A stretch of 64,000 nucleotides of DNA from a virus (IMGVR_UViG_3300027969_000039:62001-126000); one strand, 5' to 3'. Positions 30,572-62,057 are shown, numbered from the stretch's first letter. Notes: generated from the letters alone by a model not told the origin. Program-made: numbers and translations.

Positions 30572-30600
30572 ATTATAGCATAGAAACGATTTTATTGAAA
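30572..30600 (-). promoter_or_regulatory. Sigma70-like promoter, leaderless start of tilS
   Basis: TTTCAA (30600-30595, weak), 17-base spacer, TATAAT (30577-30572). The ATG at 30565 follows the -10 by six bases, so the mRNA should begin at the start codon. Confidence 0.65.
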
Positions 30601-31176
30601 GATTTCTGGGTGACTTTTGCCAAATATTTTCATGGCTTTGCCCGCAGTCATATCTGCTAGCATTTCAATTGGGCTACCAGGATAACTATCGCCCGGTTCG
30701 ATCATATTCAATTCACCTTGACGTACATGGGTTAGTTCGTGATAAACGGTACGCATAATGTCAACCATGTTACGATTAGCAACATATACCCAAACACTGT
30801 TATCGTTTTCTGAATGACGACCGGTGTGATGTCCTTGTTGTGCTTCTTCGGTATTGTAACTGAATTCAAATTTAGGTGTAGATTGTAGATGTAATTCTTT
30901 ACTAGCCCACTGGATGAATTTTTGCATTATTGGATTGTCTTCCAAGAAGTTTGGTTCATCGCTTGCTTCATCTAATTTACCCTTGACCCATTCATCTGGT
31001 GATCTTTTGAATTTGTGAACGAACAAATCATGTAATGCTTTACCAGTGATACGATGTTTACTTGCAATATTTTGCATCAACTTGTCAATAGTATTATAGT
31101 CATATTTTTGCAATGACGGTAGTCTTTTTGATAATTCAATTGCAGCGGATTCAACAATGATGTGTTTTGTGAGCAT
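30592..31176 (-). CDS. Zinc-peptidase-like protein with capsid-type N-terminal tag
   Basis: Start placed at ATG 31176, four bases after a GATAAATA late promoter. A GTG at 31200 is possible. The N-terminus MLTKHIIVE|SA fits the (I/L)-x-E tag of T4 internal head proteins. TVYHELTHVRQGE near residue 155 is an HExxH zinc site, followed by an E-M-L-A-D-M segment that could give the third ligand. The front half is helical with an FVHKFKRSPDEWVKGKLDEA stretch. I infer a late, possibly packaged, peptidase. Substrate unknown. Confidence 0.72.
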   Translation of the reverse strand: MLTKHIIVESAAIELSKRLPSLQKYDYNTIDKLMQNIASKHRITGKALHDLFVHKFKRSPDEWVKGKLDEASDEPNFLEDNPIMQKFIQWASKELHLQSTPKFEFSYNTEEAQQGHHTGRHSENDNSVWVYVANRNMVDIMRTVYHELTHVRQGELNMIEPGDSYPGSPIEMLADMTAGKAMKIFGKSHPEIFQ

Positions 31177-31180
31177 TATG

Positions 31181-31188
31181 TATTTATC
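31181..31188 (-). promoter_or_regulatory. T4-like late promoter, leaderless
   Basis: GATAAATA on the minus strand, followed by CATA and then ATG 31176. In T4 late promoters transcription starts about five bases after the octamer, so the start codon should be at the 5' end. Confidence 0.65.
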
Positions 31189-31200
31189 AATGGTGCTCAC

Positions 31201-31272
31201 TTTAACGAACTAAATGGGTAGCGATTCCTATTCGTTGGCCAGCAGCCGGCCACACGGCCCTAAGGTGTGTTC
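31201..31272. other. GC-rich intergenic stretch
   Basis: A 72-base gap with an unusually GC-rich core (about 31237-31259, with three GGCC words) that can fold into alternative short hairpins. No tRNA fold or open frame was found. It may be a terminator or a processed RNA between the oxygenase gene and the late peptidase gene. Confidence 0.3.
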
Positions 31273-31956
31273 TTACCAAGAATTTTCTTTTAATTCTAAG
31301 GTGTATGTATCAAATCTTTTCAATCTAGCTAAAAACTCATTAGTTTGTTCAGTAACAATTCCAGTCATTTGAAATGTAACTCGTGGAACATGTCCTGCAT
31401 TTGCAGTAGAGTGCGGAACATTCTTCCAATCAAATGTACTGACATCGCCGGCTTTCCATCCAGTGTGATTATAATTACCATAACTCCAAAAATGTCCCAT
31501 CTGCCAATCTGTTAATTGAACAACGATTCTAGTAACTAAGTATGGTTGTTCTGGATTCCATTTTTCAAGTTTGTCTAAATGCAAGTTCCAAACTTCACCC
31601 GGCATCTGCACATGTACACGATTCATGCAATCTTTCAATCCAAACAAATCACTAATCTTTTGCAGATTGGGAGATATCTTCCATGATAGATGACTGATTA
31701 TATAATCTTTACCATACCCGGTTTGTTCTAAATCATAATCTTCTGCTGCTAGTTCTTCTTCAGGTCTAGATTTACCTGCTTGTCCTCGTGTACGCCATGT
31801 TGCAGGTTTGCTATTACTAACTGCGTTTTCAACATCACTAGAGTAGTCAGCAATAATTCTTCCTAACTTAACAACTGTGTCATAGTTTGGGTCCATTTTA
31901 GTTGTATCAAAGTGATACTTACTTCTTATTTTTGTATTTTCCCAATTTGAATTCAT
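31273..31956 (-). CDS. 2-oxoglutarate/Fe(II) oxygenase-like protein, 227 aa
   Basis: The C-terminal half has VHVQMPGEVWNLHLDKLEKW with an H-x-D pair, RIVVQLTDWQMGHFWSYG, then GDVSTFDWKNVPHSTANAG with the distal His and an Arg in VPRVTFQ. These are the metal and 2-oxoglutarate ligands in a cupin fold, like aspartyl/asparaginyl hydroxylases. The substrate could be protein, sugar or base. It overlaps the sulfotransferase-like gene by four bases, so the two may modify the same target. Confidence 0.72.
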   Translation of the reverse strand: MNSNWENTKIRSKYHFDTTKMDPNYDTVVKLGRIIADYSSDVENAVSNSKPATWRTRGQAGKSRPEEELAAEDYDLEQTGYGKDYIISHLSWKISPNLQKISDLFGLKDCMNRVHVQMPGEVWNLHLDKLEKWNPEQPYLVTRIVVQLTDWQMGHFWSYGNYNHTGWKAGDVSTFDWKNVPHSTANAGHVPRVTFQMTGIVTEQTNEFLARLKRFDTYTLELKENSW

Positions 31957-33538: not shown

Positions 33539-33546
33539 AAGAGTGA

Positions 33547-33562: not shown

Positions 33563-33570
33563 CAGCATTT

Positions 33571-34913: not shown

Positions 34914-34914
34914 A

Positions 34915-35355
34915 TTACGCTCGGGCTTTCTTTAGAGTACTACGAATCATCCATTGATGTTTTTCGTGAGCATCTAGCCTCTCAGCGATAAAGTTTGCTA
35001 TACCTTGTTTGTTTTCTTGTGTAGCTGAAGCAAAGCAATGGTTGAGTAAATCAATCATCTTACTGTTATCTTCGAATAATTCAGCAAACATTAATTCAGC
35101 ACGAGGAATTTTAAGTTGGTCTTGAATGATAGATAATTCAGCGTAGCGTGTTAAACTGCCGGGTGCATAACTATCCAATGTACGAATGTATTCAGCAACT
35201 TTATCTACTGCACTATATACTTCTTCATAGAAATTACCAAAGAATTCGTGATATTCAGGGAAGTCAGGTCCTTCAACATTCCAATGAAAGTTCTGTGCTT
35301 TGATGGATAGTGAATTAACGCTAGCCAATAATACTTTTAAATCTTCTGCTAACAT
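34915..35355 (-). CDS. dps: Dps-family ferritin-like DNA-protection protein
   Basis: 146 residues. QNFHWNVEGPDFPEYHEFFG supplies the ferroxidase His and carboxylates, and VDKVAEYIRTLDSYAPGS is the second ligand helix, as in Dps. The long N-terminal DNA-binding tail of E. coli Dps is missing. Known Dps stores iron and shields DNA from peroxide. Coupled by TAATG to the upstream tagged protein (35355-37367), so it is probably expressed late. With superoxide dismutase it suggests protection against oxidative stress. Confidence 0.85.
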   Translation of the reverse strand: MLAEDLKVLLASVNSLSIKAQNFHWNVEGPDFPEYHEFFGNFYEEVYSAVDKVAEYIRTLDSYAPGSLTRYAELSIIQDQLKIPRAELMFAELFEDNSKMIDLLNHCFASATQENKQGIANFIAERLDAHEKHQWMIRSTLKKARA

Positions 35356-37367
35356 TATTGCTGTCCTTGTTGTTGTAGTAACTGTTTTGCCTTTTCTACA
35401 CTAAGCATTGGGCGAGGATGTGATCCATCTATAATACTTTGTAGATATTCTGCACTATAACCACTTGGTGCTTTTGCTGCTGGTTGTTCATCTGATGGTG
35501 CTACTTGAGTAGCAACTGGTTTACCAGTTAAACGATTAATACCAGGATCTTGATCTGGTAGTACACGACCGTGTGCGGCACCGCCTAATGCCATAGCACC
35601 TGCTAATGCTGCACTACCTAATGCGCTTTTCCAGCCTTCATCTACTTGGTGTACACCTGAAAGTATTGCTGATTCTTTTATTGGTACACAGTTATTAACT
35701 CTAGTATCACCCTTCATCTTAGTGCCTTGTTTTTTATAACCAGTCCAGCATTTAGGATCCATACGTTGTTTTTCTTCATCCATAGTTTGATTACCACTAG
35801 CTTGATCAATTCTGCGTTGTAAGTTAGCTTGCTCATCCGGGGTTGGAGCACCTGGATTACCTCCTGACACTCTTAAGTTTGCAGGTTTTGGTTGTTTTGC
35901 ATTACTTGGTGCTGCTGCTTGTTGACTTTGTTGTGCTAATTTACTAAATTCTTTAGCACCATAACTTACTGCCGCAGTTCTATTTCTTCTCTTTAAACTA
36001 TTTAATCCATCTAGTACATCATCTATTGCATCTTTAGCATCATCGACCGTTCTAAAAGATGATGGTCCAGATGATGGTGCGGCTGCTTGCCCTGCACCAC
36101 CTGATGCTGCACCAGCTGATGGTGCGTATCCTCTACCGCCACTTGCTGCTGACATGCCTGAACCTATTCTACTAGCTGGTACATTACTAGTTGTAGCTGC
36201 ATTGCTTGTAGTTTGTGGTGCTGATGCTCTGGTTTCAGGATTGACTTCACCAGTGTGACCCACATGTTGCATAGCTTGATTGGCTCTTGATGCGTCATAA
36301 CCTGTCATTTTACCGCCACCGTATGCATCTTTCATTCCGGCATATGTTCCTTTTACACTACCAATTGCATCACCTACCCCACCCGCCATACGACCCAATA
36401 ATCCTTGTTTGGGTTGTGCCGGCTGAACCGGTAACGGCTTTGCAGCAGGAAGTTTAAAGTTAGTAAATAAATTATTCAATGTCTCCTGTGGTACACCTGC
36501 TTTAATCATAATATCTGCAATTTGATCACTATCGGTTGGCTTATTTGCTTTATTCCATGCTTGCAATAATTTGTCAGCAGTAATCTTTGTTGTTAAGTTT
36601 TGCCCTTTGGTTTTAGCCCAATCTAGTATACCTTCATCAACTTGTTTTTTATGCTCATTAACTATTCTACCAATTAATCTATAAATTTGTGATTCAGATA
36701 GTTCAAATGATTCATTTCTCATTTGTAGACCATTGACTTCACCCGGCTTAGCAGGAACTCTTTTTGGTGCTATCGCTGATAGTGCAGAAGTAGCCGTAGT
36801 TGGTGGTTTAGGTTGTACTCTAGGAAATTTACTAAAATCACCTGTATCTGTTCTTGTACCATCTGATGGACGACCAACAAGTTCTGTACCTTTGTTTAAT
36901 GCAGCAGTTGCAGCAGCTTGTCTTTGTTGTCTTGCTGCTTGTGCAGCTTGTCCTGCAGGAGTAGTTGGTTCTTCTGCTGCTGAAACTGATGGATCTGCAC
37001 TTGTTGATTGTTTTAATCCTGAAGCTGCAACTGGATTAGGAGTGCTAAACATATCTTTAACTTTGCCAATTGCTGTTCTATTGTTGCCGCCACCTACTAA
37101 GTTAGCAGCACCACCTGCTGATTGAATCTCTTGTGCGCTTTTGAAAATTTGTTGAATTTGTTGAGGGTCAACTGCAACTCCTTCTTTAATTTTTTTTGCA
37201 TCATTATCAAATTGTTTTTTAGTAGCAGTATTGATACCTTTAAAACGTTTGTCGCCTTTTTTGAAGTCACCTTCACTATCAGCTTTGCTAGCATTAGCCG
37301 CAGCAGCAGTTTTGTATTTTGCCAACTTGTCGTTAGATAGTTCTGCTAAAAATTCATTGGTTCTCAT
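35355..37367 (-). CDS. Large modular late protein with capsid-type tag, 670 aa
   Basis: The N-terminus MRTNEFLAE|LS matches the tag of T4 internal head proteins (cut after L-x-E). Mini-domains include SEGDFKKGDKRFKG (31-44), a helical unit before VDE246|G, an Ala/Gln/Gly-rich disordered middle (370-520), KCWTGYKKQGTKMKG (539-553), known to me from other phage virion proteins, and VDE577|G, then WKSALGSAALAGAMALGGAA (579-598), a glycine-zipper-like hydrophobic segment. The same hydrophobic module recurs in the protein at 37370-39475. Probably a virion/internal head protein processed at several Glu-Gly sites. Confidence 0.72.
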   Translation of the reverse strand: MRTNEFLAELSNDKLAKYKTAAAANASKADSEGDFKKGDKRFKGINTATKKQFDNDAKKIKEGVAVDPQQIQQIFKSAQEIQSAGGAANLVGGGNNRTAIGKVKDMFSTPNPVAASGLKQSTSADPSVSAAEEPTTPAGQAAQAARQQRQAAATAALNKGTELVGRPSDGTRTDTGDFSKFPRVQPKPPTTATSALSAIAPKRVPAKPGEVNGLQMRNESFELSESQIYRLIGRIVNEHKKQVDEGILDWAKTKGQNLTTKITADKLLQAWNKANKPTDSDQIADIMIKAGVPQETLNNLFTNFKLPAAKPLPVQPAQPKQGLLGRMAGGVGDAIGSVKGTYAGMKDAYGGGKMTGYDASRANQAMQHVGHTGEVNPETRASAPQTTSNAATTSNVPASRIGSGMSAASGGRGYAPSAGAASGGAGQAAAPSSGPSSFRTVDDAKDAIDDVLDGLNSLKRRNRTAAVSYGAKEFSKLAQQSQQAAAPSNAKQPKPANLRVSGGNPGAPTPDEQANLQRRIDQASGNQTMDEEKQRMDPKCWTGYKKQGTKMKGDTRVNNCVPIKESAILSGVHQVDEGWKSALGSAALAGAMALGGAAHGRVLPDQDPGINRLTGKPVATQVAPSDEQPAAKAPSGYSAEYLQSIIDGSHPRPMLSVEKAKQLLQQQGQQ

Positions 37368-37369: not shown

Positions 37370-39475
37370 TTATGCTTTCTTATTTTTGATAGATTTTTTG
37401 CTTTCGTATGCTATAGAAGCACCGGGTCTAGAAGAAGATGTATATCCTCTATCTTGTAATCTTGCTGGTTCATCACCAGTAGCTGAATATGGAGTGTTAC
37501 TTAGATTGTTTGAATCATGTTGTCTCTGATATTCTTGGTTAGATGCATCCATTTCATCTTTACTAACTAATGGAGGTTGAACATCTGCACGATGTAATTT
37601 GAAATTATAAAACTTGATACCTTTTGATTTCATAAAATCTTTAACTGCTTCTGAAGCCTGTCCCGGGGAGTTATATTCTGTTCCAAGATTGATATCTTTT
37701 GTAATTGATTTACCATCTACTTGAAAAGTAATTTGAGCAACAATAGGTTGTATTTCATGTGCATGTGCTCCTGCCCCGCCCAATGCAGCAGCACCTGCTA
37801 GTGCAGCACCTGCTAAATTACTTTTCCAACCTTCTTCTACTTTTTTCTTAGCAGCATCCCATGCAGCATCAGTCTTTACATTGTATTCTTTGCCACCAGC
37901 GCCAATGTCAGCAACTCTGCTACCAATATCTTTTTTAGTTTTTACAACAGCTTTATTGTGTTTGTTCACACTCTTTTGCATTAATTTACCGAAGTCTGGA
38001 TTGCGTTTAAGGGCCCGTTCATCTTCTGGACTTCTTGAACTTGCTGCTGCTGTTCTCAAATCACCTAAGTCAAATGCTTCCCTCATTCCTGCTACTTTGC
38101 TACCTTGAGTGTTAGCTGCGGTACCGGTACGGCTGGCTTTCATCTTATCTCCACCGCCACCAATGTGTCTACTACCATAATCGGTCTTGTCTGCCTTGCG
38201 TGGCTTTTTATATGGTAATTGTTGAACATTACCACCTTTACTTAAAAATGCTTGTAATGCAGAATCATCTTCCGCTACACCTTCAGCACTATCAGTAGCT
38301 AATACATCTGCAACTGTGCCAATATGATCGTTTGCTACTGTGATATAACTGTATTCCCATGCATCTAATTGATTACCTTGCTTCAACATCTGATGTATCT
38401 GCTTGCAATTCTTTGCAATATTACGCAACTCTCCCATAGCCATTTGTGGAATCTGTTCTCCACCATCACTATCTTCGTATGCAAGTCCACCGGCGATAAC
38501 ACCAGCACCTTCCGTTACCCCTTGCTCTGCTTGATCCATGTACCATTTAAGAATTTTTAGTAATTCAGTAAGTGATTCTTGCCCTTCAGGATTACAGTAG
38601 TTCTTAGCCATTCTAGCTAAGTCGTACATTGTTCGTAAGTTGCTGGTGCTTACATCACCTTCATTCATACCTATCTTACGCATCACCGCTGGAGAAGCGA
38701 TTTTTTTTATCGCTTCTTTTTTTCCTACTTGTGCTGCCCTATTGCTTATTTTTTGTGATACATCATCATAATGTTTTGCCAATGGATTCATATAGCCGCC
38801 ACCTAATGCATTATGCACCTCAGGCTTCATTGCTTGATTACTTTTGTTTTTAGCTAATTGTGCGGATCTTTGTAACAGATCAGAACTGAGTTCATTGATA
38901 GCATCACTATCAGGTTGCATCTCTTGACTGCTGATTAGATAATCCATCACATTAACCATCATACCTTTTGCTGCGCCAATCTTCTCTGATACCCACTCGG
39001 GGAATTCAGATTGAACGGATAATCTCTTATCTAAATCACTAGCAGCACGGGCGATAGTGTGTAGACTGTTCTTTAATGTGTGACCTTCGTGTTCACCATG
39101 GTCTAAGTCATGCTTAACAAATCCAGTTCTTCTTAGTCTACCTTGACCCGGGATAACGATTAAGTCTTGTTCTGCAATTTCCTCTTCGTTGACTTTTGTC
39201 ATGCTTGCTTTGATTTCAGCTTTTGTTTTTCCATATTTCTTTTGAAATTCAGCAGTAGTTAACTCTGTTAAATCTATTGATAGTTCTTTAACTTTGCTTT
39301 CTGTAATGCTATTAGCGTAAGGCCCTTTCTTTTTAGCCTTCCCTTTCATTACTTGTTGTACAGGTTTCAGTCCCGGAACATTAACATTTTCACGGGTTTG
39401 AGTCATCATAGGCTTTGCTACGGTTGCGACTGACCCTGCTGTGGTTGAATTTTCTACTATTTGCTTAAATCTCAT
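37370..39475 (-). CDS. Large modular late protein with capsid-type tag, 701 aa
   Basis: N-terminus MRFKQIVE|NS fits the tag pattern (I-V-E). A helical module at 155-190 has PEWVSEKIGAAKGMMVNVMD. GVTE322|G and GVAE402|D are the same kind of linker as in the protein at 10841. VEE548|G is followed by WKSNLAGAALAGAAALGGAG (550-569), a near copy of the module in the protein at 35355. The last part is a small beta-rich domain (ITFQVDGKSITKDINLGTEY). Late promoter GATAAATA at 39499-39506 heads this gene and probably the genes down to the nuclease. Confidence 0.72.
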   Translation of the reverse strand: MRFKQIVENSTTAGSVATVAKPMMTQTRENVNVPGLKPVQQVMKGKAKKKGPYANSITESKVKELSIDLTELTTAEFQKKYGKTKAEIKASMTKVNEEEIAEQDLIVIPGQGRLRRTGFVKHDLDHGEHEGHTLKNSLHTIARAASDLDKRLSVQSEFPEWVSEKIGAAKGMMVNVMDYLISSQEMQPDSDAINELSSDLLQRSAQLAKNKSNQAMKPEVHNALGGGYMNPLAKHYDDVSQKISNRAAQVGKKEAIKKIASPAVMRKIGMNEGDVSTSNLRTMYDLARMAKNYCNPEGQESLTELLKILKWYMDQAEQGVTEGAGVIAGGLAYEDSDGGEQIPQMAMGELRNIAKNCKQIHQMLKQGNQLDAWEYSYITVANDHIGTVADVLATDSAEGVAEDDSALQAFLSKGGNVQQLPYKKPRKADKTDYGSRHIGGGGDKMKASRTGTAANTQGSKVAGMREAFDLGDLRTAAASSRSPEDERALKRNPDFGKLMQKSVNKHNKAVVKTKKDIGSRVADIGAGGKEYNVKTDAAWDAAKKKVEEGWKSNLAGAALAGAAALGGAGAHAHEIQPIVAQITFQVDGKSITKDINLGTEYNSPGQASEAVKDFMKSKGIKFYNFKLHRADVQPPLVSKDEMDASNQEYQRQHDSNNLSNTPYSATGDEPARLQDRGYTSSSRPGASIAYESKKSIKNKKA

Positions 39476-39498: not shown

Positions 39499-39506
39499 TA
39501 TTTATC
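39499..39506 (-). promoter_or_regulatory. T4-like late promoter for the 39475-34101 operon
   Basis: GATAAATA on the minus strand, 23 bases before ATG 39475. It should drive the two big tagged proteins, Dps and the secreted nuclease. GTATTT-TGAT-AAATAC around it is also a short inverted repeat. Confidence 0.65.
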
Positions 39507-39528: not shown

Positions 39529-40935
39529 TTAGATTTTGCCGTTTGCTTTAGCTGTTGGGGGTATTCCAGCACGACTGGTGTTCCAGTAGAATGCTTTTGC
39601 GTTCTTTTTTATACTGTCAGGGTGTACATCTACAGTTAGTGCTGTCTTGAATCGCGGGTCATTCTTTTGTTTTTCGCTTGGAATATATCCACTTGCTTCA
39701 CTTATTCCACCACGATATTGATTATCTTTAACGCCAGCATAAGGACTTACTGGTGGAGTTTTTTCTGCTGCAAATTGCATGGTGTTGTATTCTTCCGCCA
39801 CACCTTTTACTTTTGGATCTAAATCTTTCAAGCTATTCACATCACCTTGCTTGCGCCACTTTGACCACATTTTTTGTCCAGCGGTAGTTTGTGTTTCAGA
39901 AGGCAATACATTGACACCTAACATGCGAATCAAAGCATACATATTTGCGGCTATACCTTGTCCTTGATATTTAGGATCGACTCTGGTCTTCATGCTTGTT
40001 ACACCTTGCACTTCACCTGTATATAGATTTCGTGCTTTGGCAAATTGTGCATCTCCAATTGGATTGAGATTTTTTTTATCATATGCTTTGATAGATAAGA
40101 AATCATTTTTCTTCCCTGCATTTGTAACATGATAAAGTATTCCGTTTATGTCTTGTTTGAAATCTAATCCTGGTTTCCATAACTCATTGTTGAATTGTTC
40201 TTCTTCATCTATGTTCTGATACATAGTCTCAAACGATAACTTCTCACTATGTAACTTGTCTCTTAAATCATATAATTTTGTAATATATCCTTGACTACGC
40301 AACATCTTATATGCTAAATTTTCAGGACCAAACTCACCACCTTTATCTAATCCTGCTTGTCTATATCGTTTGATCGTGTCTATTATATGTTTTACTTTAC
40401 TATATTTTCTTGACTGTAGTGCTATCTCTATCAAACCTAATAACTTTTCATACTTGCTTTTAGTAGAAGTTTGGTCAAAATCACTTCTACGCTTAGTGGG
40501 TATTCTTATCCACTGATCATTCATTACACTGTATTCACCTAAACTTACAACAGGTTGTCTACTGTCTTGTACATATAATTCTACTGGAATTTTATGAATT
40601 GTTATATCATGTGTATCATTGTATATTGTTTTCTTTGCTGTAAATAACTCTTTATATACTTCATTGGTAGGTAAATTACCCATGTCTACTAATATATGTA
40701 AATCTAAATCACTGTGCTTTGTGTAGCTAAATGCAGCATTACTACCTGAGATTGTTATGTCTTTTACATCTAAATCATGTACACCTAATTCTTCTAAAAA
40801 ATCTGCTGCTATCAGCATAAGCTGGTCTCTAACATCTGGTCGCAATTTAGTTTCATTCCATAACTTAGGATTAAGTTTATCGTGGAATGTTACCGCATCA
40901 CTTAGTTTAAAGCTATTAAGTTCTTTTTGATTCAT
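39529..40935 (-). CDS. Nucleotidyltransferase-GNAT fusion-like protein with GVAE linker, 468 aa
   Basis: The N-terminal domain (about 40-130) has ITISGSNAAFSYTKHSDLDL, then HILVDM, a pol-beta nucleotidyltransferase start (G-S...D-x-D). The middle (about 255-365) has GEVQGVTSMKTRVDPKYQGQ and GIAANMYALIRM, a GNAT acetyl-CoA-binding segment. VKGVAE|EY follows, encoded by the same GGTGTGGCGGAA word as in the gene at 10841. The C-terminal module (KTALTVDVHPDSIKKNAKAF) is typical of phage proteins. Coupled to the 21-residue gene at 40932-40997 with a late promoter, so probably a virion protein. Confidence 0.7.
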   Translation of the reverse strand: MNQKELNSFKLSDAVTFHDKLNPKLWNETKLRPDVRDQLMLIAADFLEELGVHDLDVKDITISGSNAAFSYTKHSDLDLHILVDMGNLPTNEVYKELFTAKKTIYNDTHDITIHKIPVELYVQDSRQPVVSLGEYSVMNDQWIRIPTKRRSDFDQTSTKSKYEKLLGLIEIALQSRKYSKVKHIIDTIKRYRQAGLDKGGEFGPENLAYKMLRSQGYITKLYDLRDKLHSEKLSFETMYQNIDEEEQFNNELWKPGLDFKQDINGILYHVTNAGKKNDFLSIKAYDKKNLNPIGDAQFAKARNLYTGEVQGVTSMKTRVDPKYQGQGIAANMYALIRMLGVNVLPSETQTTAGQKMWSKWRKQGDVNSLKDLDPKVKGVAEEYNTMQFAAEKTPPVSPYAGVKDNQYRGGISEASGYIPSEKQKNDPRFKTALTVDVHPDSIKKNAKAFYWNTSRAGIPPTAKANGKI

Positions 40936-42570: not shown

Positions 42571-44289
42571 TTATTTTTCGTCTAGGTAATCAAATTTAGG
42601 TTCAACAGGTAATCCGTCGCTACGCTCACGCTTTTTCATTTGTTCGCTGTCTCGTGCGGCTCTTAGTTTAGCGATAGGTGCCCCATCACCTGCTAAGTCT
42701 TTTGCCACATGAGCCATAACATCACTTTCTTTTTCCATTACAGTTGCTATACCAACACCAACGCCTAAGCTAGCTAGTGTATATTTGAGTGTGTCTACCC
42801 AATTCTTGCCGTTCATTCTTGCACCCACTGCAGGGACGATTGAGTTCAATATACCTTGCATCATTAGATTAGTTTGATAGGGTGTTAGTTGTATATTATT
42901 AGCAAGATTTATTGCGCCACCGCCTAGTAGTGCTGCTATAGCTGTAATGATTCCACCTTGTAAGTATGGATTGTGTTTACCTTCTTTAAATATATCAATC
43001 AACTTTTTGCGAACAACTGGGTCATCAGTCTTTTGTAATAAGTGTCGTGCTTTCTCTACATAGTTTTCTACTTCTTGTTCTTGTGCTTTTTGCATTACAG
43101 GTGTATAGAACTTCATAGTAGCATCAACTATTGGATCAGTTTCTTTATCTTCTTCAATAGGTTCAGTAGTAGCACCCATCTTCATTTTTTCTTGCACCGG
43201 CATTGCCTTCTTAACTTTTTTAGTATTGTACACTCCAAATTCTCCACCACCGTTGGTTTGGCTTGTCCAACCTGGTAATGACGGTAATACTCTTTTAATC
43301 ATTCTAGCATACAACGCTCTACGACCGGGTTCTGCGGCTTGGAAATATAACAATGAAGGTTTAAATTTTTTCACATACTGAACTATAGCATTGACTACAA
43401 TTCCAAACACTTCTGCGGCTGCCCCTGTACCTTCGATACCCTGTTTAACAACTGGAAATCCGCCTTTCATATCCTGTGTAATTTGTTCAAAACTAACAAA
43501 TTTGCTATTTTCATATACTTCGTCTGAATCAACATAATCATATGGACTCATGTTCTCTGGTCCAATATATGGTTCTAAGAAATCCAATTGATATTCTACT
43601 CCATTGCTAGCAGTGAAGTTAAATTTAATCATATCAGGATTACTAGTGTCCCATTGTGAAGTAGCTGTAGATGCTTTAGTATCAAAAACTTCTTGTAAAT
43701 TAACATCAACACCCATGCCAGCATCTAATAGCTTAACGACATTTGCTGCTAATGCGGGGTTACTTTGTGTAGCTGGATACAAACTCATTACCATTGCAGT
43801 CTTGCGTTTCTCGTTTAGTTTAGGCCACATTGCACGAATCTCACTTGCACTGGTAATGCCAGGACCAAACTCTACTGTTGGTAGATATTCAATGTAAGCA
43901 TGTTGTCCAAATGGTTTTAAATCTTTGCCTGTGTATGGTTGAAAGTATGCAGGACTTCCATCTTTCTTTGTGCCACCTGGTTTAGGTTGCTCATTCTTAT
44001 CTTTTTCACTACGCACAAATATTAATACATCACTGTCAGGATTATACTTGCTTGTTATTTCTTGTGGTCTGAATGGACTACGAACTTGTACAAATTGTCC
44101 TTTCTTTACACCTGCTACTTTAGCAAGTTTTTCTTTGATTGCAAAAGGAAAAGGTCTTTCACTAGTATCGTCTGATGCCGCAACATATACATCAGCACCC
44201 GGAAAGGTTTGTAATGCTGATTGATATAGTGAGGCATGACCCGCATGAAACGGGTGAAAGCCTCCGGGCATTACGACTATTGTACTCAT
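42571..44289 (-). CDS. Multidomain nucleotidyltransferase/virion-type membrane protein, 572 aa
   Basis: Domain 1 (1-190): VVMPGGFHPFHAGHASLYQS has the H-x-G-H-like motif, and TSASEIRAMWP the second site of cytidylyltransferases. Domain 2 (about 200-375): a segment with KPSLLYFQAAEPGRRALYAR related to the N-terminal domain of the kinase at 58507. Domain 3: hydrophobic helices near 440-460 and 505-525 (GGIITAIAALLGGGAINLAN). The C-terminus is Lys/Arg-rich and acidic (FDYLDEK). The combination suggests a virion or injected protein acting at the membrane. Coupled to the RyR-like gene. Confidence 0.7.
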   Translation of the reverse strand: MSTIVVMPGGFHPFHAGHASLYQSALQTFPGADVYVAASDDTSERPFPFAIKEKLAKVAGVKKGQFVQVRSPFRPQEITSKYNPDSDVLIFVRSEKDKNEQPKPGGTKKDGSPAYFQPYTGKDLKPFGQHAYIEYLPTVEFGPGITSASEIRAMWPKLNEKRKTAMVMSLYPATQSNPALAANVVKLLDAGMGVDVNLQEVFDTKASTATSQWDTSNPDMIKFNFTASNGVEYQLDFLEPYIGPENMSPYDYVDSDEVYENSKFVSFEQITQDMKGGFPVVKQGIEGTGAAAEVFGIVVNAIVQYVKKFKPSLLYFQAAEPGRRALYARMIKRVLPSLPGWTSQTNGGGEFGVYNTKKVKKAMPVQEKMKMGATTEPIEEDKETDPIVDATMKFYTPVMQKAQEQEVENYVEKARHLLQKTDDPVVRKKLIDIFKEGKHNPYLQGGIITAIAALLGGGAINLANNIQLTPYQTNLMMQGILNSIVPAVGARMNGKNWVDTLKYTLASLGVGVGIATVMEKESDVMAHVAKDLAGDGAPIAKLRAARDSEQMKKRERSDGLPVEPKFDYLDEK

Positions 44290-44729
44290 TGTTGATTGCC
44301 TGTTATTGCCTGTAATAAGGCTCTGGCTACTACACGGTCTTTTTCTTGTTCTTCATCTGATAGTTGAGCATATGGAATGTTCATCAACTTTTCGCGCTGC
44401 TGAAGTTTTGCTTCTAATTTACCGGCAGCTTTTAGTTTCTCTGTGTCATCAAATTGTTCTGGGTGTGCTACAAACGCTTTAGCAGTTACATTCCATCCTT
44501 GATGTATCGCATCACTAATCTTTTCAATATCTTTTTCACCTGCTGTAATTGCTTTCAAAGCAAATTCAGCCGACTTCATATTAGCTTTCCATCCAAATGT
44601 ATTGCCAGGACTACTGCGACCATAGTGGTATGCATCATCCAATGCTTTGTCACTTATTTGTGCTAGTTGACCAATGTCCATGCTTTCGTTTAGCATGTCA
44701 ATATATTTTCTAAAAAGTTCTGTACTCAT
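44286..44729 (-). CDS. RyR-domain-like late protein, 147 aa
   Basis: The N-terminus MSTELFRKYIDMLNE|SMD contains an L-x-E site at the position of the capsid tag in other late proteins. The C-terminal part has IHQGWNVTAKAFVAHPEQFD and IPYAQLSDEEQEKDRVVARA. This resembles the ryanodine-receptor (RyR) domain (H-x-x-W ... Y-x-x-L-x-x-x-E-K-x-x-D-R) found in many phage proteins. Domain function unknown. Overlaps neighbours on both sides. Confidence 0.65.
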   Translation of the reverse strand: MSTELFRKYIDMLNESMDIGQLAQISDKALDDAYHYGRSSPGNTFGWKANMKSAEFALKAITAGEKDIEKISDAIHQGWNVTAKAFVAHPEQFDDTEKLKAAGKLEAKLQQREKLMNIPYAQLSDEEQEKDRVVARALLQAITGNQQ

Positions 44730-46022: not shown

Positions 46023-48261
46023 CTTCGTTCACCTTGGCTGTTAGTTTATGTGTTACTGCAAAATCAATTGCACCTTCGTTCATCACTACATTGATTGTAG
46101 CAGATTTAATACGTTCAAACAAGACTTTTTTACTTAGAGGTACCCGAATCAATTCATCAATCTTGCGACTTAATGGTCGTGCGCCCATCTTCTTATCGTA
46201 TCCTTGCTCTGCCAAATACTCAACTACTGGTTCACTTAGATTCAATACAATATCATGCTTGTCAACCAAACTCTTTTTCAAGTCATCGGTAAACTTGATA
46301 ACAATCTTCTTAATCGCAAGTGTATCCAATTTGTTAAACTTGCAAATCAAGTCAACACGATTTCTAAACTCGGGCTTGAAGAATTCTTTCAATGCTTTGT
46401 CATCTTCACCGGTCTTCTCTTGTGTGCCGAAGCCGATGTTGTTGCGTTCGCTATCACTACTACCTAAATTACTGGTCATGATAATGATACTGTTCTTACA
46501 GTTAACTTGCTTACCATTACTTCCAGTGATATGACCTTCGTCCAACATCTGCAAGAAGATGTTAAAGATATCTGGATGTGCTTTCTCAACTTCATCAAAC
46601 AACATGATCGAATGTGGGTTCTTGCTCAAGTCATTGATCAATCGTCCACCTGACACTTGACTATCACCAAACCCAACATAACCCGGGGGAGGTCCAATCA
46701 AACTACTTACGCTATGTTTTTCTGAGTATTCGCTCATGTCATACTTAAGCAACGGCATGTCTAAATTCTTGCTTAGTAGTTTAGCAAGTTCAGTCTTACC
46801 GGTACCAGTTGGTCCCAAGAACAAGAAACTACCTGTTGGCTTAGTGTCATTACCAATACCAGCAAAGTTAACATAGACTCGCTCAAGTACCTGTTGTACA
46901 GTTTCATCTTGTCCGTATAGTTTGTCTTTGATGTTTGATTCTAAATTTTGAATCAATTCAAAGTTATCACCCTTCATTTTATCAGCAGGTACTCCAGTGA
47001 ATCGTTCAACTTGGTCAAACACAAGTTCTTTAGTAATGATTGCACCTTTGTTTTCTGCTACACGCTGTTTAGCACAAGCAGCATCAAGCAAATCAATAGA
47101 TTTATCTGGGTTCTTACGGTCATGAATATAGCGGTCAGCACTTTCAACTGCTGCTTTGATTGCCTCATCAGTAATTTCAACATTGTGAAAATCATTTAGT
47201 CTAAGACTCAATCCATTAAGAATGCGAATTGTTGTATCGTGGTTAGGTTCATCAACTGAGATACGATAGAACCTACGCATCAACGCACGGTCCTTCTCAA
47301 AGCTATCATAGTATTCTTCCCATGTTGTACTAGCAATAACTTTAAGAGTACCTTTAGTAATTGCAGGTTTAATCATGTTACTGAAATCAACCGACCCATT
47401 GTTAGCACCACCTGCGCCTTGCATAGTATGTGCCTCGTCAATAAAAAGAATAGTCTTTTTCTTTGTGTTCAATGCCTCAAGTACTTGCTTAACCTTTTCC
47501 TCAAAGTCACCGCGATACTTACTACCTGCAAGTAGTGACCCAATCTCTAAACTGTATAGTTGATGGTCTTGCAAGAATTCAGGCACTTCTTTATTAATCA
47601 TCATCTGTGCTAGACCTTCAGCAATTGCTGTTTTACCAACACCAGGATCACCGACCATCAATACATTACTCTTAAACCGTTTAGCAAGTACGTTAATGAT
47701 ATCATCAAGTTCTTTGCTACGACCAATCAATGGCTCAAGTTTACCTTGTGCTGCTAGTTGTGTCAGGTTGATTGTGTATTCTTCTAGTATCTCATCAGCT
47801 TGGTTCTCTGTTAGATTTCCAGTCTCACCATGCTTATAATGTTTTTGCCAATGTGATACAAATTCGTTTTTGTTAATTCCGTATTTCAACAAGAAATAAT
47901 GTGCATGGCTATTGCCTTCTGACGCAATGCTTAAGTATAAGTCAACAGTAGTAACCTGTCTACGACCACTAAACAATACTTGTGTGACGCAACGATTCAT
48001 AACACGCTCTAAACTATTTGTTTTGCGTGGAACTACATCGTCATCTTTGCTTACGATAGCATGTAAACTATCTAAGTATGCATTAATCTCTTGATCCATT
48101 GTTTCAACGTCTGCACCAAAACTATGCAAACATTTTTTGAATGAATTATGATTTATCAGTCCAAGTAGTAAATGTTCCACGGTTACATATTGATGTTTTC
48201 TTTCTTTAGCATAATGAATCGCTTGTTCAATAATACTATCTATTTCGGGTGAATGGTTCAT
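46000..48261 (-). CDS. clpA: ClpA-like AAA+ unfoldase with ClpP-docking loop
   Basis: 753 residues, as bacterial ClpA. N domain 1-145. D1 Walker A GDPGVGKT at 204-211, Walker [10 protein letters not shown]2 Walker A GPTGTGKT at 483-490, with [14 protein letters not shown]. The long coiled-coil insert of ClpB is absent. NNIGFG with Ile-Gly-Phe at 609-611 is at the place of the ClpP-binding IGL/IGF loop, so it may dock to host ClpP and redirect proteolysis. Overlaps dnaJ by four bases and is driven by the early promoter at 49068-49096. Confidence 0.92.
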
Positions 48262-49061
48262 TTTTGATTCCTTTGTTGTTTGTATGCTGCAATAGTATTT
48301 ACTAATTGTTCGTCTATGATATCAGGTATGAATGGCTTAAACAATATAATTTGGTCTCCGTAAACTGTTGAGTTAGGTATAGGCATCCCATGCCCTGCTA
48401 ATTTTAATTGCATATATGGTTGTGTTTTTGGTTTAACTGTAACCTCTAATGTCTTTCCAGACAATGTTGTGAATTCAAAAGTTGTTCCAACAATTAAATC
48501 TAATACTGATATCGGGTGATTACATGATAAATCATTACCTTGTCTATCATATTTAAGATGGTTCTCCACTCTGAAATCTACCATTAAACTAGCACCATCT
48601 ATGACATTATCAATACGCATCTGATTGCCGTTGTTAATTCCTTTAGGTACTTGGATAGTAATAGCATGAGTGTTAGTGGGTGTTTGTAATTTTAATATTT
48701 GCTCTCCACCATAATATGCTTGTTCAAGTGTGATTCCTACTGTGGTTCTAAATGTTTGTGGTTGTTTGCGCTGTTGGCTAAACGGGTCAAACGGGTTGCC
48801 TCCGCCAAACATCTGACTAAAGATATGTTCAAACCCTGGGGGAACACCAGCTTGCTGATGAAATCCTTGGGGAGCAGGATTGTCGTATTGTTGTCGTTTG
48901 TTTGTATCGCTTAGTGTATCATAAGCGGCTTGAATATCTTGGAATTTAGCCTTGTCTCCGCCCTTGTCAGGATGATGCTGACTGGCTAGTTTCCTATATG
49001 CTTTTTTAATTTCGTCAGGTGATGCGTTTTTAGCTACACCTAATGTAGTATAATGATCCAT
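48258..49061 (-). CDS. DnaJ/CbpA-type co-chaperone
   Basis: The J domain (1-65) has HHPDKGG, the HPD motif that stimulates DnaK. A Gly/Phe/Pro linker (85-115, [14 protein letters not shown]) is followed by two beta-rich C-terminal domains ([37 protein letters not shown]). No zinc-finger cysteines, so it is type II (CbpA-like). 267 residues, slightly short. First gene of the operon with clpA. The ATG lies six bases after a perfect -10. Confidence 0.9.
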
Positions 49062-49702: not shown

Positions 49703-50251
49703 TTATAATCCTGCCATTGCTATGTATGCTTGTATCTCACTATCTGGTTTACCATATAATTTTACAGTTTCTAGTCCGGCGCGTCTACGCATCTCATTTA
49801 AATCTTCTTGGTTTTCTTCTTCAACACGATATTCGTGTGGACTAATAGTAATTACTTGCTTCAATACTTCCGGGTCAGCATCGTATTCTTCTTCATCAAT
49901 AGAAATAGTCCAATCATTTATTGTTAACTCGGTAAGTGTTTCTAAATCATCAATCAATTCTACAATGCGTTCTGGAACTTTTGTTCTACGCTTCATCTCA
50001 ACAAATACTAGATACTTACCAGGACTTAATTCACCTTCGCTTAAGCTAGAATCTAGTATCCAATCATATCCACGCTCAAACCAGTCAACCAAATCATTTC
50101 CTGCTGCTTCGCTTTTAACAACAAATGCCAATGTAACAATGTCACTGTCTTTGCCCATCTTAGCAGCATACTCATCTACAGAAACGGTAGGTTCTATTTG
50201 ATCTACCATATCCAAATAATCTAAGCCTTCATTAATGATTCTTCTTGTCAT
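49703..50251 (-). CDS. Late-type protein with possible capsid tag, 182 aa
   Basis: The N-terminus MTRRIINE|GLDYLDM has an I-x-E site followed by Gly. The remainder is acidic with a beta-rich part (ELTINDWTISIDEEEYDADP) and ends DLNEMRRRAGLETVKLYGKP, a C-terminal motif typical of phage virion proteins. Adjacent to holin and virion-type genes. Function unknown. Confidence 0.62.
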   Translation of the reverse strand: MTRRIINEGLDYLDMVDQIEPTVSVDEYAAKMGKDSDIVTLAFVVKSEAAGNDLVDWFERGYDWILDSSLSEGELSPGKYLVFVEMKRRTKVPERIVELIDDLETLTELTINDWTISIDEEEYDADPEVLKQVITISPHEYRVEEENQEDLNEMRRRAGLETVKLYGKPDSEIQAYIAMAGL

Positions 50252-58505: not shown

Positions 58506-58506
58506 A

Positions 58507-59604
58507 TTATGATGTTCCTTCGCTAAACCACGGATCAATGATAACCGGTTGTCCGTTACTTCGTTGCATGACATTTGCCGTATGCAAATCCCATCCAAAT
58601 TTATTGATATTTCCTGTACTATATAATAACTGCATCACAGTATATAGCTGTTTATACATACTGTAAGTTTTTTTACTTGCAGGATTTTCTAGTATACTTT
58701 GCCATGTTCTAGCAAAAGTACCAGAATAGTTTGGACTAAAAAAATACCACGGGTGTCCATTTGTTAATTCGCTTTCCACAGTTGACCATGGTTTATTTCC
58801 ACTAACATAATCACTTAATAACCAAACCATACCTTGTAAGAAACCACCTTTTTCTATAGGGGATAATCTCTCCATCTCAATCTGAGTGTAGTCTTTGCCA
58901 TTGATATCGATGGTGTTCACTTCATTGAATCTAGGAACGCATGGTAAATCTTGATGACTCATTGAAAACTCATAAAACTTACGAAATACTTGTTCAGCTT
59001 TGCTACCCGCATCCTCTGGCATCAATATCTTGATCACATGACTATCATCTTTGGCAAAAACAGTAGCATCAGCACCGCTGCCAACATGATGATATCCAGC
59101 CGCTCTTAGTTGTTTCCAAATCTCATTGCTATTCTTAGTAGCTACTTCAGCTTCATCCAAATTATCTTTGACAATCTTGAAGTAGTCATCATACTCACCT
59201 GAATCAATAGGTGCCGCATGGTAACCGGGTACTTTGATTCTATTCAACATACGCTGGTATAATTTAGTTCTATTGTCATCTGCTTTGTGTGAAGTGAATG
59301 TAAGTTGATCAGGATGATAGCTAGAAATCAAATCTTTGATTGACTCAATGACAAATGAGAATACTTGTAATTCATTACCAGAACCAGTCTTTCTAAAAGT
59401 TGTACCAGTTCCGTCCTTTTCATATTCAGTAAAGTCTATTTCCCATACTGATTTACCTTCATCATCGTCATACTGTGAAGCATTAAAAACAATAACACGA
59501 CCACCTATCGTAGCCTTAGTGGTGTATAAGTCTGGAGTTGCTCTAACTACTTCACTAGAGACATTGCTAGTAAATACTTCGGTTATAAATTCTGTGGCTC
59601 TCAT
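58507..59604 (-). CDS. Protein-kinase-fold late protein with capsid-type tag, 365 aa
   Basis: The N-terminus [11 protein letters not shown] is the clearest copy of the tag (I-x-E cut). Residues 25-130 are a domain with [20 protein letters not shown], related to the middle domain of the protein at 42571-44289. The kinase-like fold follows: [10 protein letters not shown] (174-183, Gly loop), VIKIL with Lys192, [10 protein letters not shown] (337-346, catalytic Asp339 and Asn344) and DPWF 357-360 in place of DFG. A late internal-head kinase, injected to phosphorylate host targets as T4 Alt modifies RNA polymerase, is my inference. Target unknown. Confidence 0.78.
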
Positions 59605-60155
59605 AGACTCTTACCCCAACGGGTATTAATCACATTCCAGTTTATGATTTTCCACTGTTCTTTGATGTACTTTTTCTTATCACTGCCGTAATCTAATATG
59701 AAAGCATGTTCCCACCAGTCAATCAATAACAATATGTCATTGCGTACTTGATGATTTACTATCGTTTTAATCTTGCCGTCTGTAGCTAAGTATATCCAAC
59801 CACTACCCTGTATCTTCATGGCCTCAATCTCAAACTCAGACTTCATGTTATCATAATCACCGTAATGTTTATTAACGAATCCCATCATAGGGCCGTTGGG
59901 CTTGTTATTGTTTCTCACTTCACGGAACTGCGGGAATAATGTATTATGCAGGAAAGCGCCTGCATAGTTGAAATCTCTATCACCCTCTTTATTATTGTAT
60001 CGTTCAGCATACCCGTGGGCTAGTTTCCCATAGTGCAAATCCAATGTGTCTTTGGATAGTACAGGACTGACTTCAGCCGGAGTGAAGTTTAAGGGTATGA
60101 TTTCTATGTCTTGAGGCTTACTCTTTTCCTCAAGCAATGTAATAATGTCACGCAT
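59601..60155 (-). CDS. sod: Superoxide dismutase (Fe/Mn family) with capsid-type tag
   Basis: 184 residues. LDLHYGKLAHGYAERYNN carries His41, AGAFLHNTLF His70, LLLIDWWEHAFILDYG Asp146 and His150: all four metal ligands. Tyr49 is the gate residue, but the second-shell His30 of E. coli FeSOD is Leu45. Gly66 and Gln136 resemble the Mn type. Ahead of the fold is MRDIITLLEE|KS, an extra N-terminus fitting the L-x-E tag. Starts six bases after a late octamer. Suggests SOD packaged in or attached to the virion. Confidence 0.85.
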   Translation of the reverse strand: MRDIITLLEEKSKPQDIEIIPLNFTPAEVSPVLSKDTLDLHYGKLAHGYAERYNNKEGDRDFNYAGAFLHNTLFPQFREVRNNNKPNGPMMGFVNKHYGDYDNMKSEFEIEAMKIQGSGWIYLATDGKIKTIVNHQVRNDILLLIDWWEHAFILDYGSDKKKYIKEQWKIINWNVINTRWGKSL

Positions 60156-60161
60156 AACATG

Positions 60162-60169
60162 TATTTATG
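60162..60169 (-). promoter_or_regulatory. T4-like late promoter, leaderless, for SOD
   Basis: CATAAATA on the minus strand, then CATGTT and ATG 60155. Probably drives SOD, kinase and ErpA, which overlap or abut. Confidence 0.6.
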
Positions 60170-60176
60170 CGTATTG

Positions 60177-60392
60177 TTACCTGCGCCGAGTAATGCGTCC
60201 TTTAGATAGGTCGTAGGGTGAGAATTCTACTTCCACCGTGTCTCCGAGCAATATTTTAATGTCGTTCTTACGCATACGACCACTGATGTAACCAGTAATC
60301 ACATTACTTGGATTCATCTGTACTTTGAACATAGCATTGGGTAATACATCGATCACCTTACCGTCCATCTTGATTCCCTCTTCTTTTGCCAT
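60177..60392 (-). CDS. infA: Translation initiation factor IF-1
   Basis: 71 residues, as E. coli IF-1 (72). GKVIDVLPNAMFKVQMNPSN, ISGRMRKNDIKILLGDTVEV and FSPYDLSKGRITRRR follow the OB-fold signature, including the RKN-x-I-x-I-L-x-G-D region. IF-1 binds the ribosomal A site and aids selection of the initiator tRNA. Phage copies are rare. Together with the leaderless promoters here it suggests that the phage adjusts initiation. AAAGGAG lies 15 bases before the ATG. Confidence 0.92.
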   Translation of the reverse strand: MAKEEGIKMDGKVIDVLPNAMFKVQMNPSNVITGYISGRMRKNDIKILLGDTVEVEFSPYDLSKGRITRRR

Positions 60393-60411
60393 TTTAGTTT
60401 ATTAAACTCCT

Positions 60412-60810
60412 TTAGTTGCGGCGCATTGTGCTGATATCTCTAGCTTCCTCATCGCTAAAGACAGGAACAGCATTACTCTTGTGCATAGTACCAATACCAA
60501 GAATCTTTGTTCCTGTGTATTTTGGTGCTGGCTTGCTAGACACGGGACCAGAATGTCCAGTATCCAAACTCTTGATGTGATGTGTGTTGGTACGACCGAT
60601 CGGTGTACTAAGTGAATAGACCAATGGTTCTGCTGCCATCGCTCGTTTTTGTCTCTTTGTTTCCTGTTCAACTCCCCACTTTTTCTGTAGGTCGTGCCAG
60701 TCAGATTCTAGTTCACGGTGCTTCCGTGCTTCCTCTGCATTGCGAAACTTAATTTTGCCCTTGCGTTTACCACCCATCGATAGGGAGGGATGTGCTAGAT
60801 GCATAGTCAT
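60412..60810 (-). CDS. Conserved-type phage hypothetical protein, 132 aa
   Basis: Basic N-terminal half (HPSLSMGGKRKGKIKFRNAE) with helix, and a C-terminal segment TGTKILGIGTMHKSNAVPVF then DEEARDISTMRRN, which I recall from other T4-like phages. ATG 60804 is an alternative start. Early promoter at 60840-60868. Function unknown, position beside infA. Confidence 0.7.
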   Translation of the reverse strand: MTMHLAHPSLSMGGKRKGKIKFRNAEEARKHRELESDWHDLQKKWGVEQETKRQKRAMAAEPLVYSLSTPIGRTNTHHIKSLDTGHSGPVSSKPAPKYTGTKILGIGTMHKSNAVPVFSDEEARDISTMRRN

Positions 60811-60839
60811 ACGGATATAAACATAGTTAATATGAGTAT

Positions 60840-60868
60840 ATTATAATACAAAAATCATTTATTGTCAA
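60840..60868 (-). promoter_or_regulatory. Consensus sigma70 promoter
   Basis: TTGACA (60868-60863), 17-base spacer, TATAAT (60845-60840). Exact consensus. Leader of about 25 bases to the gene at 60810, and probably infA. Confidence 0.85.
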
Positions 60869-60871
60869 CCG

Positions 60872-61267
60872 TCATCTTTTCAGTATTTCAACAATCTTTT
60901 CTTTTTCCAGAATGTCGGCTTCTAATTCCATATATTGCTTACGCAATTCTCGCAATTTTTTCCACTTTACCTCTAGTTTTTCGTTGGGATGTAGTATCGC
61001 TAACCGTTCTTCTATCTTAGTCAAGGTCTTATCTAGGCTTTTGCCCTTGACTTTAATATCACCCTCAAAAACAGCATCACCTTTAACTTGTAAAGTACCA
61101 GTAGGTTGATGACTAATAGTGTCAGTCCAGACTGGACTTGTGCCATTATTAACTAGAAATTGTCCGCCAGTTCCTGTAGTTATTGGATTTATTGGATTTA
61201 TATTTATACTAGTACCTGTGGTTGTATAAACTTGTTGTGTTGGTGGATAGATTGAACTATTATTCAT
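60872..61267 (-). CDS. Conserved-type phage protein with coiled coil, 131 aa
   Basis: The first 75 residues are a Thr/Gly/Pro-rich beta-repeat (TGTGGQFLVNNGTSPVWTDT; GTLQVKGDAVFEGDIKVKG), as in fibre or whisker-like proteins. The end is a coiled coil (IEERLAILHPNEKLEVKWKK). Probably a virion or assembly component. Overlaps the AbrB-like gene by four bases. Confidence 0.65.
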   Translation of the reverse strand: MNNSSIYPPTQQVYTTTGTSININPINPITTGTGGQFLVNNGTSPVWTDTISHQPTGTLQVKGDAVFEGDIKVKGKSLDKTLTKIEERLAILHPNEKLEVKWKKLRELRKQYMELEADILEKEKIVEILKR

Positions 61268-61452
61268 GTTTTCTTTAATATATAACGGCCTTCTTCATCT
61301 AATCCAACTTCAATATTATCTCCCTCTTTCCAGCCCATTTGGTCAAGCAATGCTTGTGGGATAGGTAATAATAAGTCATCGTCATTGTCAGGATTTGGTT
61401 GCGTTATTACTTCATAACGCATTCTTTCTTGTCCAGGATTAGGTCTAGCCAT
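61264..61452 (-). CDS. AbrB/MazE-like small DNA-binding protein, 62 aa
   Basis: Start at ATG 61452, six bases after a -10 (TATACT). LLLPIPQALLDQMGWKEGDN then IEVGLDEEGRYILKK is the AbrB swapped-hairpin signature with its L-x-I-P and W-x-x-G-D turn. Such proteins regulate transcription or act as antitoxins. No toxin partner is seen next to it. Leaderless mRNA predicted. Confidence 0.72.
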   Translation of the reverse strand: MARPNPGQERMRYEVITQPNPDNDDDLLLPIPQALLDQMGWKEGDNIEVGLDEEGRYILKKT

Positions 61453-61458
61453 GTGTCT

Positions 61459-61488
61459 AGTATAATGTATTTGTTGATTACTAATCAA
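61459..61488 (-). promoter_or_regulatory. Sigma70-like promoter, leaderless, for the AbrB-like gene
   Basis: TTGATT (61488-61483), 18-base spacer, TATACT (61464-61459), then six bases to ATG 61452. Matches the spacing of the other leaderless early promoters. Confidence 0.55.
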
Positions 61489-62057
61489 GTTTTATGGATG
61501 AATGGTCCGTAAATCTTTTCAAGTTCTTGGATAGTTTGAGCAACAGTACTATCTTCATGCTTTACTGCAATGCCACCTGCACTACTCCATGCATCTAAAT
61601 ATTTGCCATAATCATCTACTAGTACATTTGGGATGCCACCATTTAATGCATGTTTGTACTTTGCACCAGTGAATATTGCACTACCACTAGTTCCCGGGTT
61701 ATATTGGTCTAGCCAATCTTTTTTAGCTTCTATGCTAGCCTTCGCATACGGACCGCGCAACGGAGCAGACAATACGGTGAACGGGATTTTATTATCATTT
61801 AGCCACATTACAATACGCATACCACCTGTTAGTGGCTTTAAGTCTCTAAAAAACTGATAAACTTGTTCCGGGCTACTTGTTGCTAATGCTTGTATATCTT
61901 CTTCTCGTCTTGGAATCTCTTTGTAACTAGAAACCCCATGCTTTCCAGCCCAGGCGCCAAAGAAATCTGCTTGAACTCCATCCATATCTAGGTATAGATG
62001 TGGCATCTTTGCTTCTGGTTCAGACTCAATTTCTTCTAATAATTCTCGTATACGCAT
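61485..62057 (-). CDS. HAD-family 5'-nucleotidase-like phosphatase with capsid-type tag
   Basis: LYLDMDGVQADFFGAWAGKH has the catalytic D-x-D-G-V (Asp24, Asp26). The middle has the second HAD motif near VLSAPLRG and a final VLVDDYGKYLDAW with acidic pair. This matches the NT5C/deoxynucleotidase-type cap arrangement. The N-terminus MRIRELLEE|IES is the tag pattern. ATG 62057 (second of two) lies five bases after the late octamer. May alter nucleotide pools or remove phosphates inside the head or after injection. Confidence 0.8.
   Translation of the reverse strand: MRIRELLEEIESEPEAKMPHLYLDMDGVQADFFGAWAGKHGVSSYKEIPRREEDIQALATSSPEQVYQFFRDLKPLTGGMRIVMWLNDNKIPFTVLSAPLRGPYAKASIEAKKDWLDQYNPGTSGSAIFTGAKYKHALNGGIPNVLVDDYGKYLDAWSSAGGIAVKHEDSTVAQTIQELEKIYGPFIHKT

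Follow-up and report, generated by a model that had tools for sequence, protein, structure and literature searches.

A shared N-terminal tag on unrelated late proteins of a T4-like jumbo phage as a probable capsid-targeting propeptide

Tagged genes of the window and their source phage

The stretch analyzed here (the window, 64,000 nucleotides) comprises bases 62001–126000 of a 303,057-base IMG/VR virus record (IMGVR_UViG_3300027969_000039; the whole contig is called G000 below). It carries a set of genes whose products have unrelated domains and begin with a similar short sequence running to a glutamate, hereafter the tag, which we consider very likely to be a capsid-targeting propeptide of the T4 type. 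A preliminary description had listed ten such N-termini, and all ten are present as quoted, the coordinate that it used for each minus-strand gene being the stop end.

On the plus strand, a multi-module gene (10841–12523), supported by a tag profile and a domain match, starts with MRFTEFISE (10841–10867) and has a C-terminal DUF6321 domain. A GP88-domain protein (13095–14840; GP88 E 8e-26), supported by its domain and orthologs, starts with the short tag MNFKELHE|G (13095–13118; the bar marks the predicted cut). The other genes lie on the minus strand and are named here by their lower coordinate. A zinc-peptidase-like protein (30592–31176; HELTH recognized by eye) reads MLTKHIIVE|S (31150–31176) from an ATG at 31176, with a GTG lying further upstream. 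Two multi-module proteins begin with MRTNEFLAE (35355–37367; tag at 37341–37367) and MRFKQIVE (37370–39475; tag at 39452–39475), respectively. A kinase-domain protein (58507–59604), which matches a PHROG family annotated as an inhibitor of host transcription, begins with MRATEFITE (59578–59604). A Fe/Mn superoxide dismutase (SOD; 59601–60155) carries the N-terminal extension MRDIITLLE|E (60129–60155) in front of a domain that starts at residue 18 (Sod_Fe_C E 4e-22), and an NT5C-type nucleotidase identified by domain match (61485–62060) carries (M)MRIRELLE (62034–62060), its actual N-terminus being MMRIRELLEE.

Judged from its genes, the source, a freshwater phage, is of the T4-like jumbo type with a predicted gp21-type (S77) prohead protease. 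The DNA polymerase most resembles that of the jumbo T4-like phages Phosso, Vibrio 2.275.O, Atu_ph07 and CBB (43–49% identity), and homologs of gp20, gp21 (Peptidase_S77) and gp23 with neighboring core genes lie outside the window in T4 order. The protease matches Peptidase_S77 with E 4e-29 and is 36% identical to T4 gp21 over 156 residues. An S77 protease was likewise found in 7/7 tag-bearing contigs of at least 180 kb and in 9/9 large contigs reached via SOD, peptidase, GP88 or nucleotidase cargo; contigs chosen solely by the junction motif described below (5/8 with S77) are excluded from the resulting count of 16/16, which covers contigs of 180 kb or more that bear a tag or cargo.

A strict expression, M-x(1-7)-[EQ][FLI][ILV]-x-E, matched 6 of the 331 called genes of the contig, against 0.5 expected from internal positions; a looser expression gave 22 matches against 10.5 expected on the same genome and was rejected as too permissive. 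A tag profile was also trained on other contigs, with two contigs identical to the source left out and near relatives kept, so that the scores of the kinase and the nucleotidase are not fully independent. Under this profile, 10841, 35355, 58507 and 61485 outscore all of the ~82,000 internal windows of their own proteome, and so do two proteins encoded elsewhere on G000 (47949, MRASEFLTE; 48323, MRAKEFITE). T4 IPIII, absent from the training set and therefore scored independently, does the same, and T4 IPI does not.

Conservation of the tag as a peptide

The preliminary description had proposed a search of related phages, and the tag was indeed found there. When IMG/VR was scanned at the DNA level with a degenerate pattern for MRAKEFIxE, at least 120 viral stretches matched, almost always where an open frame begins, whereas the permuted control MRAEFKIxE gave no match in the same scan. 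The 166 tagged genes of 137 loci fall into 30 cargo clusters, and the consensus of the tag is MRAxEFIxE. Since residues 2–9 were partly set by the search pattern, the fair evidence consists of the variability of residue 8, the loss of conservation beyond E9, synonymous variation and the sets selected by cargo. Among 98 core tags, residue 10 is mostly Ala, Ser or Gly; residue 8 is free and conservation ends after E9, the pattern expected of a T4-type (L/I)-x-E cut. The 39 core tag peptides occur in 85 DNA spellings, MRAKEFITE alone in 15; the tag is conserved as a protein sequence and not as DNA, and selection acts on the peptide.

In relatives, tagged genes occur in tandem (e.g., five consecutive ones in locus L028), and one kinase domain turns up after various N-terminal domains, which the tag precedes. 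Pfam matches among the relatives' tagged proteins include ADP-ribosyltransferase, amidoligase, transglycosylase and LRV/HEAT repeats. The commonest tagged family among the pattern-scan matches listed is the ~125-amino acid family of the strongly tagged paralogs at G000 47949–48326 and 48323–48715. This family has no match among isolate phages, in which relatives of 48323, 30592 and the GP88 protein are absent, or partial and remote.

IMG/VR was also searched with each cargo minus its tag, and the N-termini were read afterwards. The peptidase 30592 keeps hxE|S (h, hydrophobic) in 45/45 distinct complete orthologs, with varying letters, and 57 of the 59 complete orthologs of the GP88 protein keep L-x-E|G/S. 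The regular expression alone passes 54 of these 59, missing three that start with MKINDILES, where a longer start hides a pattern that is present, and the two remaining exceptions probably have mis-anchored starts. For the SOD, an hxE extension is present in 62/62 orthologs, two of them judged by eye (one starting with GTG, the other with an extension that differs and ends in PLTE|A). It is because of this conservation that 59601 and 30592 are counted as tagged, 37370 being a candidate. A remote SOD homolog, that of Pseudomonas phage PA5oct, bears an extension peculiar to it, MNDSIKKYISIAE|A, and its GenBank entry has an ESI-MS/MS (electrospray tandem mass spectrometry) label. An AlphaFold model of the SOD (pLDDT 60) was too weak to carry weight. 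Whether orthologs keep the enzyme without the N-terminus, as the preliminary description asked, thus depends on the cargo: the tag is retained for the peptidase, the GP88 protein and the SOD, and the nucleotidase is mixed. Among the three weaker cases of that description, 13095 is borne out by these orthologs; 49703 (49703–50251, minus strand; MTRRIINE), which matches phrog_13138, a virion structural protein, is more likely an ordinary head or virion protein than tagged cargo; and 44286 (44286–44729, minus strand), with the N-terminus MSTELFRKYIDMLNE|S, is a weak case noted by inspection and left undecided.

The late motif of the source phage is GATAAATA/CATAAATA rather than TATAAATA, a candidate with only 15 exact genome copies, two of them near gene starts, which fits less well. 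Of 35 genome copies of GATAAATA, 23 are at most 40 bases away from a called start, compared with ~2% expected. The motif or a one-mismatch form stands upstream of 10841, 30592, 37370, 59601 and 61485, with GATAAATA at 10778–10785 (plus strand) for 10841 and at 39499–39506 and 62063–62070 (minus strand) for 37370 and, just before its start, 61485. The earlier claim of a late promoter directly upstream of most of the listed genes therefore holds for about half of them, and fails for 35355 and 58507, which sit behind a tagged gene in the same operon and have no promoter of their own. GATAAATA is found 2–7 or 17–27 bases before late starts (e.g., before 61485 and at about 31181–31188), and the close spacing class suggests leaderless late mRNAs.

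In-frame GVAE junctions and cassette exchange

Within the gene at 10841 lie five in-frame copies of GVAE, most with Q in front, and with G or S as the next residue. Four are spelled GGTGTGGCGGAA (11072–11083, 11276–11287, 11486–11497 and 11795–11806) and the fifth, with one mismatch, GGTGTGGCGGAG (11990–12001), all on the plus strand. On the minus strand, one junction each occurs in 37370 (38270–38281) and in a neighboring protein without a clear tag (39529–40935; junction at 39793–39804). A 16-base form of the junction is present in at least 120 IMG/VR stretches, often in multiple copies (loci include L315–L394 and L482–L601), and AAGGTGTGGCGGAAGG has single matches in cellular genomes, at least 119 compared with ~120 estimated by chance in 257 Gb. 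Literature searches, with preprints and most subscription papers outside their reach, returned no report of the GVAEG junction or the tag in such phages, and no precedent for cleavable cargo polyproteins of this combinatorial kind.

We take GGTGTGGCGGAA to be a DNA-level swap point, at which cassettes are shuffled between tagged proteins of freshwater phages. The junction-bounded cassettes are 34–440 residues long (median 75), and all 28 of the 28 recurrent cassette families have varying neighbors. Of 1709 homology breaks, 533 (31%) are no more than 25 bases from the motif, compared with 582 of 8545 random positions (7%), in pairs that are not independent. In relatives, cassettes and C-terminal modules match kinase, GNAT, ASCH, ParB_N, GH19, LysM, Tat signal and domains of unknown function. 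In loci L234 and L573, the tag is fused directly to the junction (MRANEFIVEGVAEG and MRATEFIIEGVAEG, respectively), as if cassettes could be added right behind the tag.

We regard it as an even call whether aquatic T4-like jumbo phages make capsid-tagged polyproteins of in-frame cassettes, in which GGTGTGGCGGAA would serve both as swap point and as a prohead-protease site that releases the modules before injection. It is also possible, with the balance tilted somewhat against it, that QGVAE|G is no more than a junction, or relic, of DNA recombination, which acts as a flexible linker when translated and is left uncut by the prohead protease. The concentration of homology breaks at the motif favors the latter, as does the fixation of the junction at the DNA level, in which GGT, GTG and GCG are used in 109, 103 and 107 of 113 copies, respectively, so that the codons run against the habit of the genome (GTG, 11% of Val codons; GCG, 7% of Ala codons). 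Against such a relic speak the use of the GVAE frame by 117 of 118 GGTGTGGCGGAA copies, with G next in 89 of 115, which fits hxE followed by a small residue, and the density of GVAE in other contigs, 8.3 per 10,000 residues in tagged proteins vs. 1.0 in untagged ones (permuted motifs, ~1 or below), i.e., about eight times higher. Two slighter points are also in favor of putative cutting: the five junctions of 10841 coincide with or border low-confidence stretches in an AlphaFold model that is itself too weak to carry weight (pLDDT 55, pTM 0.26), and a DUF6321 protein of phage S-SCSM1 (L726:202–1755) carries the sites VSE|G and MTE|G between its modules without the DNA repeat (four sites vs. 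1.9 in shuffles, not a strong excess).

Probable capsid targeting and the proposed fate of the cargo

The T4 proteins IPI, IPII, IPIII and Alt carry a capsid-targeting sequence (CTS) that reads MKTYQEFIAE|A in IPII and IPIII and MKTFKEF...TITE|A in IPI. The CTS peptide suffices for packaging, gp21 cuts after L/I-x-E, and the CTS-bearing internal proteins and Alt are ejected (PMC9026906). The tag is like the CTS in its position at Met-1, its length of about ten residues, its E-F-I-x-E core, matching F7, I8 and E10 of IPIII, and the small residue after the cut; several unrelated cargoes and an S77 protease in the genome are common to both systems, and the ADP-ribosyltransferase among the relatives' tagged proteins recalls Alt. 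In contrast to T4, the tag is one residue shorter (MRAxEFIxE vs. MKTYQEFIAE) with Arg at position 2, its cargoes are many more and mostly enzymes, it is sometimes joined to the GVAEG junction, and packaging is inferred.

Given the match to IPII and IPIII, the S77 gene, the selection for the peptide sequence, the range of unrelated cargo and the detection of a tagged enzyme in the virions of isolates, we hold the shared N-terminus, with high probability, to be a T4-type propeptide for packaging, cleavage after (I/L)-x-E and ejection of the cargo. By analogy with T4, tagged proteins of the source phage would bind the scaffold core of the assembling prohead via the tag late in infection; the gp21-type S77 protease would cut after the (I/L)-x-E glutamate and free the mature cargo inside the head, and would cut multi-module cargo such as 10841 at its QGVAE|G junctions into separate small proteins; and the freed cargo would enter the next host along with the ejected DNA. 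The tag would then be a reusable address on unrelated cargo, a swappable enzyme toolkit. The earlier idea of enzymes packed and injected thus stands in part, in the form of a probable capsid-targeting propeptide, less clearly so for the nucleotidase and probably not for 49703.

The tagged enzyme in question is cytidylyltransferase/NMNAT, which the passages on virion mass spectrometry report as detected in purified virions of cyanophages S-SM1 (PMC3037559) and S-SCSM1 (PMC9602691). Its N-termini have a T4-form tag: MKKFSAFLNE|A (S-SM1), MKSFLQFLKE|A (S-SCSM1) and MKNFHQFITE|A (S-SRM01). Those same passages of the two papers make no mention of a tag, and the S-SCSM1 authors state there that such virion-suspension proteins could also be carry-over (PMC9602691). 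The DUF6321 protein, whose domain ends 10841, is labeled a virion protein in S-SCSM1; that of S-SM1 (T4-GC 119) is annotated hypothetical, and so carries no virion label. In the window, 42571 was considered as a counterpart of the cyanophage cytidylyltransferase and dropped, as it has no significant homology.

Several observations weigh against capsid targeting. By the profile alone, 37370 (E 0.4), 59601 (E 2) and 30592 (E 3.9) are weak. The nucleotidase has hxE in 36 of 65 orthologs and lacks it in 29, the tag therefore being optional on this enzyme, and the SOD of Vibrio phage 2.275.O (L034:8004–8573) has no N-terminal tag. The 16/16 for S77 is a count for these contigs alone. The mass spectrometric support comes from isolated relatives, not from the source phage; the GenBank labels of PA5oct, which also cover metabolic enzymes, show no enrichment of tags (9/92 vs. 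16/276, p = 0.23), and the virion list of S-SCSM1 holds one strict T4-form tag only, on a virion protein (n = 1). The 2.275.O SOD has a C-terminal extension ending ESVNIRHLINFISK, which could be a tag at the other end.

Alternatively, the tag might direct proteins to the prohead core without marking an injected toolkit, its bearers being mainly parts of the core or of head assembly that either remain in the capsid or are lost once cleaved. Core and head proteins of the source phage do bear hxE near the N-terminus (a gp23-like protein, MSKVLLEG...; 232035, ...PAVEG), the PA5oct counterpart of 232035 starts with MKINDIITEG, and gp21 breaks down the core proteins of T4, which for the most part exit the head (PMC9026906). 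However, the SOD, nucleotidase and kinase are enzymes found elsewhere without the extension and freely exchanged between phages, ill-suited to a structural role, and the ejection of CTS-bearing proteins in T4 is contrary to such a role, making this alternative improbable. A signal of late genes in translation or in the mRNA, or mere chance, is hardly credible as the source of the common N-terminus: several tagged genes do start very close behind the late motif and the loose expression does match often, but the many DNA spellings, the tags on 35355 and 58507 inside operons, the empty permuted control and the recognition of T4 IPIII by the profile all speak against it.

Capsid targeting of this kind can be compared with two other systems. 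We know of no common short N-terminal tag among the ejection proteins of phiKZ-like and SPN3US-like giant phages, which belong to another phage lineage. In these phages, a gp21-like protease processes many proteins inside the head, cleaving behind the glutamate of S/A-x-E (PMC9026906). The polyvalent proteins known from phages and plasmids combine several domains of mixed activity, are predicted to enter the capsid and be injected, and in some cases have a peptidase of their own (PMC5512222). The 58507 kinase matches Kinase-PolyVal weakly, and 10841 joins several modules without known function and DUF6321 in one chain, presumably injected. Whereas polyvalent proteins are large single chains, those described here have a short CTS and a repeated fixed junction, and are predicted to be cut by the head protease.

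If capsid targeting is correct, sequence alone would reveal, through a short readable address, the phage proteins that enter the head and reach the host just as infection begins, including those of phages never grown, and the cargo (SOD, kinase, nucleotidase, peptidase, ADP-ribosyltransferase and numerous proteins of unknown function) would become a list of testable early-infection effectors. As guesses, the SOD may act against oxidative stress, the nucleotidase on host nucleotides and the kinase in host takeover. Tag and junction would also provide simple handles for loading proteins into phage heads, and the junctions hint at how cargo shuffles.

Directly downstream of the tagged 35355, a protein at 34915–35355 starts with MLAEDLKVLL, matches a PHROG 'DNA binding protein' and is Dps/ferritin-like by eye; it could belong to the same packaged set. 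Outside the window, G000 174231–181610 and 288425–300808 hold runs of similar cysteine-rich proteins (PCC motifs), radical-SAM/SPASM-like by eye.

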